Below, one piece after another: positions 24,686 to 29,933 of a DNA stretch of 64,000 bases. Origin of the DNA: Rhodospirillaceae bacterium (GTDB taxonomy: Bacteria > Pseudomonadota > Alphaproteobacteria > UBA8366); contig PBOR01000052.1 of NCBI GenBank assembly GCA_002724395.1, positions 42,938 through 106,937 on the forward strand. Reading direction: 5' to 3'. The notes under the pieces were generated by a model that was not told the origin of the DNA, did not search any database, and was given only the letters and a program-made list of their open reading frames with translations. The position numbers were made by a program, and so were the translations under genes. Each line of letters starts with the position of its first letter. Within the stretch, counting starts at the first letter, position 1.

Positions 24686-24728
24686 TGCGAATGATAATGA
24701 ATATCAATGATAATGATAATTAATAGCA
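24686..24728. promoter_or_regulatory. Fur box cluster upstream of DUF4856 gene
   Basis: TGCGAATGATAATGAATATCAATGATAATGATAATTAATAGCA, repeated GATAAT hexamers as in classical Fur boxes. Confidence 0.75.
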
Positions 24729-24751: not shown

Positions 24752-26197
24752 ATGCGAAAGACATATTCTTTGATAGGCGCGGGTGGGTTAATGCTCGCGA
24801 TGGCATCGACTGCTGCACTCGCGGATGGCGATGTATATGGTCCGTTTCCAGTTACCGTAAAAGATTATAGTGGCAAGAAAACCAATTCAGTTGCCTATTC
24901 CGGCCAAATTGCGCGACATGCGCTGCACGATTCACTAAAGAAATTAGCTTCAAAAGGTAACGGCAGTCCAAACGCTGACCTTAAAGCTAAAATGATGTCT
25001 TATTTTAAGGGCAAGGATAAAGGCCGCACGATTATAGCACCCAAGACAAAAGGCCCATATGTGGTCAAACAAACTACTATCGATGGGATCTCAAAGAAAA
25101 AAAATATCGCGGGAAAGACTTATAAAGGTGTTATTAGCGGAATGCCGAGCAATATGACCGGGCCAGAGTTGGTTGCTTTTTGGATCGATAAGGCCTCTTC
25201 AGCTAAAAAAGGTGTCGATTACGCTAATGGGTATGACTACAGCCAGCTCATCTCAAAATTCATAATGGGAGCGATGATGTACAACCAGGCGGTTGACAAT
25301 TATCTCGATGAAAAGTTGAGCGCAACAAAGAAGCCCAATGATAAGCCTTACAAAAAAGGAAAGCATTACACTGGTAAGGAACACTCCTGGGATGAAGGAT
25401 TTGGCTATTTTGGGGCACCCGCACATACTTTGAAACTTACACCGCGCCAGGTTTATGAGATTGCTAAACAAGGTAAAAAATCGAAGCCTAAGAAAAATGC
25501 TCTGAAGTTTGCCGATTACAACAAAGACGGAAAGGTAGACCTCAAATCCGAACACACCTTCGGACCTGCGTATTACGCGGCGGGCTTCGATGCAGGGGCC
25601 TATGGCAAAAGCAATGGCACCAATTATCTGCACACAATTGTAAAGGCCTTTATCGATGGACGAAAGTTGATTACATCGGCCAAGGGTGAGAAGCTATCCG
25701 ACGCCCAGCGTTCGAAGCTGCGCGCATATGCAGCTGTCATTGGCAACAACTGGCAGAAAGTACTAGCCGAAGCGACATACAAGTATGCGGGTTCCGTATA
25801 CAAGTCGATGGCTAAGCTGCAGACGATTATGGAAGCTAAGGGTGATACTAAAAAACAGCTTCGCAAATACATCAAGTATTGGGGTGAGCTTAAAGGTTTC
25901 GCGCTAGCGCTCCAAACTGGTAAGGATAATCTTGGCGAAACCGCAACCCGCCTAAACCGGATGATCGGATACGGACCGCTGATGCTAAATCTGAGCCAAG
26001 TAAAGGATATTGATAGCAAGGGCAACTATGTGCGCGATCAAGGCTCGTCCTGGGGCGAGTACATGTTGCATATGGCAAAACTCCAAAAGCTGCTTGTAGA
26101 TAAGTTCGGCGTTAAGGCCCGCAAGAACACAATCACAGGTGACTTGGCGGACCTTGCTAAGAAGCTTGGCGGCGGAAAATCGGTCGAAAACGACTAA
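24752..26197 (+). CDS. DUF4856-type (imelysin-like) exported protein
   Basis: Signal peptide; KEHSWDEGFGYFGAP motif; Fur boxes upstream. Confidence 0.75.
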   Translation: MRKTYSLIGAGGLMLAMASTAALADGDVYGPFPVTVKDYSGKKTNSVAYSGQIARHALHDSLKKLASKGNGSPNADLKAKMMSYFKGKDKGRTIIAPKTKGPYVVKQTTIDGISKKKNIAGKTYKGVISGMPSNMTGPELVAFWIDKASSAKKGVDYANGYDYSQLISKFIMGAMMYNQAVDNYLDEKLSATKKPNDKPYKKGKHYTGKEHSWDEGFGYFGAPAHTLKLTPRQVYEIAKQGKKSKPKKNALKFADYNKDGKVDLKSEHTFGPAYYAAGFDAGAYGKSNGTNYLHTIVKAFIDGRKLITSAKGEKLSDAQRSKLRAYAAVIGNNWQKVLAEATYKYAGSVYKSMAKLQTIMEAKGDTKKQLRKYIKYWGELKGFALALQTGKDNLGETATRLNRMIGYGPLMLNLSQVKDIDSKGNYVRDQGSSWGEYMLHMAKLQKLLVDKFGVKARKNTITGDLADLAKKLGGGKSVEND

Positions 26198-26211: not shown

Positions 26212-26252
26212 GCGGCGGCTCGAAATTATATTTTGAGCCGTCGCAGTTTTTT
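26212..26252 (+). terminator. Rho-independent terminator between DUF4856 gene and fusion gene
   Basis: GCGGCGGCTCGAAA (26212-26225) pairs with TTTTGAGCCGTCGC (26231-26244), followed by AGTTTTTTTT. Confidence 0.85.
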
Positions 26253-26265
26253 TTGGGAAGGCACC

Positions 26266-28278
26266 ATGGGCGGGCTTGTTGAAGAATACTTACTGGAATT
26301 GACCGGTCCTTTGCTAAACCCCCAAAAACGTATTTTTGTTGGCTTCTTGGCAAGTGCCTTTGTTGTTGCCTTTTCAGTCCAGCTTCTTATTTATCGAATG
26401 AACTTCAAGCAGGCCCTAAAGGAACTTTGCGCCGCAAAAATTTGGTGGTCGCAGTCGGCACGAGCCGACTACAAGCTAATGGCTATTAATCAAGCCCTGA
26501 TGATGGGCATAGCACCGTTATTGATATCCAAACTAGTCTTAGCCACAATATTGTTCGAAAGTCTTCATGTTTGGTTCAACGGAAGACCGGCGTTGCTGCC
26601 TGACCTGCCAGGATGGACGATAGCCGCTCTATTTACGGTAAGTGTATTCCTACTTGATGATCTGTCGAAGTACTTTGTTCATCGTGCACTGCATCGCTGG
26701 CCGATGTTTTGGGCATTTCATCGGGTTCATCACTCTGCGGAAAAGTTGACACCCTTCACTGTCTTCCGGACCCATCCAATTGAAGCAATTATCTTTACCC
26801 TTCGAACAAGCATAGTTCAGGCACTCGTCATTGCCGGGTTTTTATTCTTCTTCTCCGAACGAGCTGATCTATTGACTGTTCTTGGCGCAAATATCTTCTT
26901 GTTCGTATTCAATGCGGTTGGCTCAAATCTGCGTCACTCGCATGTTTGGATAAGCTATGGTGCGTTCGTTGAACGGTTCCTAATCTCTCCAGCCCAACAT
27001 CAAATCCATCATTCTATAGATCCACGTCACCACGATCGCAATTTTGGCGTTGTTCTTGCTGTTTGGGATTGGATATTCGGCACCTTAGTGTTGGCTGGTG
27101 CCAAACAAAATTTGCGCTTCGGCATTTTGGGGACCGTTCGGCACGATTTGGCGGCTCTCTATATTTTGCCTTTCTCGGCATCGGTGCGATCGCTCGGGTT
27201 TAATTTACGAAAGGAATTCTTGAAAATGGTCCGATTTGTCAACCTCCGTCTCAGGCGCCCGACCATGATTGGCATCTTCTTCCTAATGGCGCTTATAACT
27301 GGCAGCCCATTTATAACTAGTGCCGCTTCCAGTGCTGATTTGAACATCTATTCCCATCGCCAGCCTTTTCTGATCAAGCCGTTCCTAGATGCTTATCAGA
27401 AGGAAACTGGCACTAATATAAATATTGTTTACGCCTCCAAAGGTCTGGCGCAACGTCTACAAGCAGAAGGCGCGCGCAGTCCTGCCGATGTCATCCTTAC
27501 AGTCGATATCGCTCGGCTCTATGTGTATGCCGACAAGAAATTGCTCCAGCCGGCGGAATCCCCGATTTTGGCAGCGAATATTCCTGCGCATATGCGCGAC
27601 CCGGGAGATCGTTGGTTCGCATTTTCCAAGCGTGCTCGTATAATCGCGGTCTCAAAAAGGGCCAAGGATGTCTCCCAAATAAAACGTTATGAAGACCTGG
27701 CTAATCCTAGATGGAGGGGTCGCATTTGCTCTCGCCCTGGCAGTCACGTTTATAATCGTGCGCTGATCGCTTCCGTAATCTATACCTCTGGTAAAGCTAA
27801 AGCAGAACAATGGGCGAAAGGTGTTGTCGCTAATTTGGCGCGGCGACCGCAAGGCAACGATCGGGCACAGGTCAAGGCCATTTACGAGGGCGTCTGCGAT
27901 ATAGCTATCATCAACAACTACTATTTCGGGAAGCTTAAGTATTCTGACAAGCCGGACCAACAAAAATGGGCTAGCTCAGTAAATTTGATTTTCCCCAATC
28001 AGGGTGATCGAGGTTCACATGTAAACATCTCCGGCGGCGGTATCGCCAAACACTCACCGAACAAGGCCGAAGCCACCCGTTTCTTGGAGTTCTTGACTTC
28101 TGAAAAGGCGCAGCGATTATACGGATCAATCAATTTTGAATACCCGGTAAATGCTGCGGTAGCGCCACCAAAGGAATTAGAGTCCTGGGGAAAGTTCAGC
28201 GAACACAAAATGCCGATCATCCGGATTGCGGAACTGGCGCCGGAGGCCCAGAAAATAATCGATCGGGTTGGTTGGTAG
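26266..28278 (+). CDS. Fusion: N-terminal sterol desaturase/fatty-acid hydroxylase membrane domain plus C-terminal Fe3+ ABC transporter substrate-binding protein
   Basis: N-terminal His boxes HRALH, HRVHHS, HQIHH. C-terminal ADLNIYSHRQPFLIKPFLDAYQKETGTNINIVYASKGL...VYNRALIASVIYTSGK typical of FbpA/FutA. ATG at 26266 favoured over the ORF start at 26233. Confidence 0.85.
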   Translation: MGGLVEEYLLELTGPLLNPQKRIFVGFLASAFVVAFSVQLLIYRMNFKQALKELCAAKIWWSQSARADYKLMAINQALMMGIAPLLISKLVLATILFESLHVWFNGRPALLPDLPGWTIAALFTVSVFLLDDLSKYFVHRALHRWPMFWAFHRVHHSAEKLTPFTVFRTHPIEAIIFTLRTSIVQALVIAGFLFFFSERADLLTVLGANIFLFVFNAVGSNLRHSHVWISYGAFVERFLISPAQHQIHHSIDPRHHDRNFGVVLAVWDWIFGTLVLAGAKQNLRFGILGTVRHDLAALYILPFSASVRSLGFNLRKEFLKMVRFVNLRLRRPTMIGIFFLMALITGSPFITSAASSADLNIYSHRQPFLIKPFLDAYQKETGTNINIVYASKGLAQRLQAEGARSPADVILTVDIARLYVYADKKLLQPAESPILAANIPAHMRDPGDRWFAFSKRARIIAVSKRAKDVSQIKRYEDLANPRWRGRICSRPGSHVYNRALIASVIYTSGKAKAEQWAKGVVANLARRPQGNDRAQVKAIYEGVCDIAIINNYYFGKLKYSDKPDQQKWASSVNLIFPNQGDRGSHVNISGGGIAKHSPNKAEATRFLEFLTSEKAQRLYGSINFEYPVNAAVAPPKELESWGKFSEHKMPIIRIAELAPEAQKIIDRVGW

Positions 28279-29933
28279 ATTCTTTTCCTACCTGGATTGT
28301 GGGTCTGCGCCTCGGCAGGCCGAGCCCATGGACGCTAGCCACGTCCTTTATCGCTTTAATTTTCTGCGCGCCAATTGTAGCTGTCTTAATTACTGCTGCG
28401 GGCGATAGTGCGGGTCTTTGGCAACATCTATTCGAAACGGTCGTACCGAGATACGTCACCAATACTCTCGTCTTAATGGCAGGGGTAGGTATTATTAGCC
28501 TGTTTTTCGGCATTACTAGCGCCTGGGTTGTCGTTCGGTATGCGTTTATCGGCAGACGAATATATCAATGGATACTGCTATTGCCAGCAGCCATTCCAGG
28601 TTACCTAATTGCCTATACCTATACGGATTTTCTCGAATTCGCGGGTCCCGTGCAGAATTTTCTGCGTACTTTCTTCGGGTGGCAATCCGCACGCGATTAC
28701 TGGTTTCCTGAAATTCGGTCGATGGGCGGCGCAATGCTCGTAATGGGTGCCGTGCTATACCCATATATCTATATCATGGCGCGGACCGCTTTTTTGCTGA
28801 CACCATCATCCTATTTTGAGGTTGCCCAAGTTTCGGGTCGAAATATATTTTGGTCGGTTGCGCTTCCCTTGGCTCGCCCGGCAATTGTGGCAGGCTTGGC
28901 GCTTGTGTTGATGGAAACAATCTCCGATTTCGGAACAGTGGAGTATTTTGCTGTCGAAACGTTAACTCTTGGAATTTTTAATGTGTGGTTAGGGATGAAT
29001 AATCTGACCGCTGCGGCGCAAATTGCATCGTGCGCGTTTCTCTTCATCATATTTCTTTTAGTCTTAGAAATTTTGGCGCGGGCAAAACGGCGCTTTATCG
29101 ATTCAACTCGACGCTCGGTTTCACTAATTGCGAAGCCGGTCTCGGGCTGGCGCGCAGCATTCTGTGCAACCGTTTGTCTTATTCCAGTGATTGTAGGTTT
29201 TGTTGTTCCGGTCGGTGTACTCATAGGATTCATTTTGCAGGGTTATTCGGTAACTCTCAACACTACTATCATTCATGCAGCTGGAAATTCGATCTTAATT
29301 GGCTTCTCCGTAGCGGTTCTTGTCGTGGCTACATCGCTTTTTATGGGACTAGTCGTCGCCTTTAACCAAAACAAGGCGGTCCGGGGTTTAGCGGCAATAT
29401 CATCTTTCGGTTATGCGTTTCCAGGCACAATCCTTGCCGTGGGCGTGGTAACAGCGGGTGGCGCACTCGACACCCAATTAGCAGCATTAGTCAAACAGAA
29501 CTTCGGTTTGGAATATTCCGGCTGGTTAACAAGCGGTTTTGCTTTGGTGGTTTTTGCCTGTGTTGTGCGTTTTCAGGCGGTAGGCTACGGCGCTGTCAAA
29601 TCCGGCCTAGCGCGCATATCGACAAGCATGATCGAAGCAAGCCGCGTCCTTGGCTACGGGTTTGGCAGAACGATGGGCAAGGTCATTCTTCCGATGATTC
29701 GTCTCTCATGTATTGCTGGGGGTCTTTTAGTATTCGTCGATGTTATGAAGGAGCTGCCCATGACATTGCTGTTACGACCATTCAATTTTGATACGCTTGC
29801 AACGTATGTCTATCAGTTTGCTAAAGACGAATTGCTTGAGGAAGCAGCCCTTCCAGCACTAGCGATTGTTTTAACCGGTATCATTCCCGTCATTCTGATG
29901 AACGCCGTCTTTAATCGATTCAGGAATTCCTGA
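28272..29933 (+). CDS. Fe3+ ABC transporter permease (FbpB-like, two permease domains)
   Basis: Multi-TM protein with EVAQVSGRNIFWSVALPLARPAIVAG and IEASRVLGYGFGRTMGKVILPMIR EAA loops. Confidence 0.92.
   Translation: MVDSFPTWIVGLRLGRPSPWTLATSFIALIFCAPIVAVLITAAGDSAGLWQHLFETVVPRYVTNTLVLMAGVGIISLFFGITSAWVVVRYAFIGRRIYQWILLLPAAIPGYLIAYTYTDFLEFAGPVQNFLRTFFGWQSARDYWFPEIRSMGGAMLVMGAVLYPYIYIMARTAFLLTPSSYFEVAQVSGRNIFWSVALPLARPAIVAGLALVLMETISDFGTVEYFAVETLTLGIFNVWLGMNNLTAAAQIASCAFLFIIFLLVLEILARAKRRFIDSTRRSVSLIAKPVSGWRAAFCATVCLIPVIVGFVVPVGVLIGFILQGYSVTLNTTIIHAAGNSILIGFSVAVLVVATSLFMGLVVAFNQNKAVRGLAAISSFGYAFPGTILAVGVVTAGGALDTQLAALVKQNFGLEYSGWLTSGFALVVFACVVRFQAVGYGAVKSGLARISTSMIEASRVLGYGFGRTMGKVILPMIRLSCIAGGLLVFVDVMKELPMTLLLRPFNFDTLATYVYQFAKDELLEEAALPALAIVLTGIIPVILMNAVFNRFRNS

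Follow-up and report, generated by a model that had tools for sequence, protein, structure and literature searches.

The stretch of DNA analysed here (64,000 nucleotides, referred to as the window) carries an operon in which a membrane hydroxylase and a ferric-binding protein share one reading frame, with a DUF4856 gene in front and a permease gene behind. Its features are as follows.

24690..24728, plus strand: Fur-box-like repeats (AATGATAATGAATATCAATGATAATGATAATTAATAGCA) that overlap one another, ahead of the operon
24752..26197, plus strand: first operon gene, DUF4856 protein with a signal peptide (PF16148, 4.3e-12)
26212..26244, plus strand: strong hairpin of 15 pairs with a loop of 3, then a T-run, in the gap that separates the DUF4856 gene from the fused gene
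26266..28278, plus strand: fused gene of 670 amino acids, comprising membrane hydroxylase, signal segment and ferric-binding protein (ORF, Pfam)
26266..27225, plus strand: hydroxylase part, residues 1-320, FA_hydroxylase / sterol-desaturase superfamily (Pfam, structure model, histidine boxes)
27210..27215, plus strand: AAAGGA, a Shine-Dalgarno-like motif that precedes the internal ATG by 10 nt
27226..27228, plus strand: internal ATG in the same frame (codon 321), where a second start of translation is proposed
27226..27339, plus strand: signal-peptide-like segment, residues 321-358, with a basic n-region, a hydrophobic core and small residues before the mature start (alignment, model)
27340..28275, plus strand: mature ferric-binding protein, residues 359-670, FutA/FbpA fold (sequence, fold match)
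28272..29933, plus strand: ABC-type inner-membrane permease (PF00528 twice), which overlaps the fused gene at its 3' end (Pfam)

From the ATG at 26266 to the TAG at 28278 runs a single open frame of 670 codons with zero internal stops. An in-frame TTG further upstream, at 26233, is unlikely to be the start of the gene because it falls within the strong hairpin. In a Pfam search, residues 125-273 matched FA_hydroxylase (PF04116; E 1.8e-25), and the protein from residue 370 onward matched solute-binding-protein families (E 3.6e-15 and weaker). The three histidine boxes, HRALH139, HRVHH152 and HQIHH245, sit at residues 139-143, 152-156 and 245-249 of the fused protein, and their histidines are invariant across 24 fused proteins; the N-terminal part is a membrane hydroxylase of the PF04116 type, its activity predicted from the profile and these boxes. 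An AlphaFold2 model built from 24 sequences predicted mostly confident domains on either side of the junction, with the lowest (very low) confidence at residues 323-356, matching the signal-like segment. This layout agrees with an earlier note on the sequence, which had described a frame continuing without a stop through a His-box membrane hydroxylase domain, a signal-peptide-like segment and a full FbpA/FutA-like protein, and had placed AAGGA at 27211-27215 before an in-frame ATG at 27226; both elements are present, with a spacing of 10 nt.

The C-terminal part is a ferric-binding protein of the FutA/FbpA type, with Fe3+ binding predicted from sequence and model. The model reached a TM-score of up to 0.95 against 2pt1 (normalised by 2pt1), and the FutA/FbpA sequence match covered the whole mature protein (E 7e-86). 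Tyr496, Tyr552 and Tyr553 align with Tyr142, Tyr198 and Tyr199 of 1q35, which we take to be the iron ligands of that protein. A fold search with the model gave, among the best matches listed, binding-protein matches only, and a PDB sequence search with the hydroxylase alone returned no usable match. Against the curated NCBIfam profile of the ornithine lipid hydroxylase OlsE, the hydroxylase scored 48.3 bits, far below the cut-off of 475.

Iron-related surroundings of the fused gene

All five near-consensus Fur-box matches of the 64-kb window fall in the cluster at 24690-24728, ahead of the first operon gene, compared with a mean of 0.94 matches in shuffled sequence; bacterioferritin and Fur genes also lie near the fused gene. 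The Fur-box context that the earlier note had ascribed to the locus is real, and the adjoining iron permease it had mentioned corresponds to the ABC permease gene overlapping the end of the fused gene. No ATPase subunit gene, as would be needed for a complete FbpABC set, was identified beside the permease within the window. Two related loci, L053 and L054, carry a palindrome, GCTAATGACTNNCATTAGC, upstream of the DUF4856 gene, replacing the GATAATGAT-type boxes of the window; it is possibly the site of a different iron regulator.

Nearly all loci, fused or split, keep the DUF4856 gene 5' of the hydroxylase, and its product shares 53-97% identity in 30 relatives. Its AlphaFold2 model is confident (pLDDT 89.6, pTM 0.88), a PDB search by fold and by sequence gave no significant match, and a literature search of partial coverage found no description of DUF4856. 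The protein may possibly represent an undescribed fold tied to iron uptake. An imelysin or EfeO identity was considered and rejected, given a confident model without a significant PDB match and a profile match to DUF4856 only. Most relatives also have a hairpin, of differing sequence, in the gap between the DUF4856 and hydroxylase genes (L053, L054, L058, L049, L080, L103, L125 and L131, some with a T-run), perhaps a partial terminator or an mRNA-protecting element that sets the expression ratio.

Distribution and origin of the fused gene

Genome searches yielded 26 loci in which hydroxylase and binding protein lie in one frame, the window's included; two of these, G464 and G467, have the binding-protein part cut by contig ends. 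The 25 further loci, at 45-94% identity, comprise the same fusion in a congeneric genome (94%) and 24 loci in other genera, families and orders, and overall the fusion is spread over the family to which the window belongs, two further families in that order, and three or more additional orders of the class. Additional to the 26 are a frameshifted locus, G023, whose DUF4856 and permease genes are also broken, and G040, in which the fusion appears to be divided between two contig ends. Since the same fused ORF recurs in 25 other loci, an assembly or sequencing error was rejected as its source. In nine loci the two genes are separate, within an operon that likewise runs from the DUF4856 protein through hydroxylase and binding protein to the permease. 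The earlier note had proposed a search for the same architecture elsewhere and had raised the prospect that all homologues might be two separate ORFs; the count of 26 fused loci against nine separate in-operon pairs goes against that refuting prospect. G004 has two fused copies, and fused and split operon copies coexist in G007 (L050, L057) and G477 (L120, L121, L128). A phylum-wide sample of 399 genomes contained no fused locus beyond the known ones at the threshold used, a search for viral and plasmid carriers found none, and our literature search, again of partial coverage, found no description of the architecture. The fusion is real and recurrent, and apparently maintained.

In trees built from either part and from the two combined, the fused loci scatter over several groups, with G471 and G473 placed inside the split clade. 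The placement of all fused loci in one clade was rejected by the AU test (p = 2e-6; p-AU 2.4e-6 without long branches). A single origin was rejected on this basis, although the long branches of G443 and G299/G459 call for caution. Because the fused loci do not form one clade, these trees indicate that fusion or fission has happened repeatedly. A route is suggested by the split operons, most of which have the binding-protein start in the +1 frame, roughly 11 to 26 bases short of where the hydroxylase stop codon ends. With the carrier start placed within the 3' end of the hydroxylase gene in this manner, one small indel before the overlap would join the two frames while sparing the carrier start and its ribosome-binding motif.

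The G027 locus (L051) lacks the DUF4856 gene and the hydroxylase and is otherwise collinear with the fused loci L053 and L054. It may represent either a natural deletion or a state preceding insertion.

The junction and its proposed internal start codon

In the main fused clade, the stretch from Pro302 to the mature binding protein has a single near-invariant residue, Met321. An alignment of the junction in 19 rows (the main clade together with G011) has Met at column 321 in 18 rows and two residues later in the nineteenth, whereas the other columns from 303 to 357 are conserved in at most 15 of 19. Most loci carry AAAGGA or a similar purine motif 9-10 bases upstream of this Met, so that start codon and ribosome-binding motif are conserved together, as in a nested gene; the context is weak in a minority of loci (G431, G477b and G011, and the separate fusions G471, G473, G299 and G459). 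Since the phase of AAAGGA relative to the codons takes two forms, A-AAG-GA and AAA-GGA, it is the bases of the motif that seem to be under conservation, rather than the residues they encode. Predicted pairing with the 16S tail was mostly among the strongest of each gene's ATGs, with a mean of -7.0 kcal/mol and a combined p of about 8e-8, a value inflated by the treatment of related genes as independent and by the use of the best junction ATG. This calculation used an assumed alphaproteobacterial 16S tail; a search of the assembly for the organism's own tail did not find it.

The same Met recurs where the hydroxylase is absent, in G027 and G434, whose binding-protein genes keep it with AAAAGGA or GAGGA in front. 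In G434 it is the first Met in frame; in G027, where an earlier in-frame ATG also exists, it is this Met that has a good ribosome-binding motif, with AAAAGGA nine bases upstream. G027 shares both flanks with the fused loci of G021 and G039, and so occupies the same chromosomal place. The conserved Met is likely to be the start of the binding protein in these two genomes.

The frame across the junction has stayed open as well. Among the 13 codons preceding Met321 there are, on average, 5.8 single changes that would create a stop, and the tree length of the junction is about 8 substitutions per site. In the main clade, codons 308-320 contain zero stops, against about 16 expected under neutrality, a rough figure from a simple substitution model that ignores possible selection on the C-terminal tail of the hydroxylase. 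A stop here should be tolerable for the enzyme, since split hydroxylases end around this junction. This deficit of stops suggests that read-through into the binding protein is kept by selection, and that the joined product is probably real.

As for the signal segment itself, the hydroxylase part has several hydrophobic segments, after which come basic residues, then a hydrophobic core (333-351) and, ahead of the mature protein, small residues; we presume, from the superfamily, that the hydroxylase C-terminus is cytoplasmic. In the measures taken, fused and unfused signal segments are much alike, and this favours an ordinary, cleavable signal peptide at the junction over a permanent anchor. Cleavage-like small residues were present in 26 of 26 fused rows under a permissive rule. 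Taken together, the comparison between loci shows the fusion, the conserved start, the kept frame and a repeated change between fused and split forms.

A candidate two-product gene and its relation to known systems

Our preferred reading, which we hold to be fairly probable, is that of a nested two-product iron-uptake gene, yielding both a joined protein and a free binding protein. Ribosomes starting at 26266 would make the joined protein, composed of the membrane hydroxylase, a signal segment crossing the inner membrane and a periplasmic ferric-binding protein, whereas those starting at 27226 would yield only the ferric-binding protein, equipped with a signal peptide of its own. The free protein would be exported, cleaved and then serve the adjoining permease as a normal periplasmic Fe3+ carrier, and the joined protein would probably be cleaved, at least partly, at the same signal peptide. 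The fusion would have arisen from overlapping genes, with the carrier start inside the hydroxylase 3' end in another frame. The making of both proteins, their cleavage and an iron role for the hydroxylase are what we infer from sequence comparison. The earlier note had left the choice between two products and a membrane tether open; the conserved internal start, which is also the likely start where the hydroxylase is missing, favours the former, and the ordinary, cleavable-looking junction speaks against the latter.

The signal segment retains the features of a cleavable signal peptide, no other part of the structure model is less ordered, the frame stays open, and Alphaproteobacteria offer a precedent in fbcH, all of which would also suit a polyprotein, that is, a single precursor cut by signal peptidase into hydroxylase and free binding protein, with Met321 as a relic of the former start. 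However, a relic Met should neither be the sole near-invariant residue of a fast-changing junction nor retain a Shine-Dalgarno-like motif, and we regard a polyprotein as rather unlikely. The open frame would likewise be compatible with a permanent tether, in which an uncleaved anchor fixes the binding protein to the hydroxylase and only the joined form matters, and the hydrophobic stretch 333-351 is long enough to span the membrane. This arrangement is very improbable in our judgement, since the segment closely resembles its counterpart in unfused relatives, with the cleavage-site residues described above (by a permissive rule), and the internal start is conserved.

The fusion might instead be incidental, the hydroxylase having lost its stop and gained a functionless tail, with selection acting only on the free binding protein and on hydroxylase activity. 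Several origins or losses and the one-indel route from overlapping genes make fusing easy, and G007 and G477 hold fused and split copies in single genomes; yet the 20-locus main clade has no stop or split revertant, set against the expected stop gains, and the two near-clade relatives without a joined gene (G027, G434) lack the entire hydroxylase. We consider an incidental fusion improbable. A similarly small chance is given to the joined protein being a working chimera, in which the di-iron hydroxylase and the carrier would act on one substrate, for example by oxidation of an iron chelate or of a lipid ligand held by the carrier, while the free carrier does the bulk transport; if true, this would be a new kind of iron-uptake component.

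Under the two-product reading, gene callers would report one 670-residue protein and miss the free carrier, or make a split call and miss the joined form. The family provides a natural series (overlapping, fused, hydroxylase absent) for studying the passage from overlapping to two-product genes, and the locus ties a membrane hydroxylase and a DUF4856 protein to ferric iron uptake.

Among known systems, the binding protein has the same fold as, and 40-45% identity with, FutA/FbpA proteins (PDB 2pt1, FutA1; 1q35 and 1si0, Mannheimia FbpA; 6g7n, IdiA/FutA), but differs from them in that a membrane enzyme precedes it in a longer frame, of which it forms the C-terminal portion. The hydroxylase shares its histidine boxes and a Pfam match far above the cut-off with the PF04116 superfamily, which includes OlsE, and differs in sitting in an iron-uptake operon. 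ABC transporters of the OpuA and GlnPQ types have fused substrate-binding domains, and likewise attach a binding protein covalently, within a single frame, to a membrane protein. In those systems the transporter itself is the partner, whereas here it is a His-box hydroxylase, the permease being a separate downstream gene. In fbcH of Bradyrhizobium, which encodes a cytochrome b/c1 precursor whose processing has been shown, a membrane protein and an exported protein also share one frame with an internal signal peptide; the proteins are different, processing in the present case is a prediction, and here an internal start is conserved in addition. According to a published account of plasmid pIGRK, two Rep proteins come from in-frame nested genes with an internal translation start (PMC6854812). 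The likeness lies in one frame with two starts and two products sharing a C-terminus, and the difference in that the short product here would be a whole, separately exported protein, encoded by a stand-alone gene in relatives.
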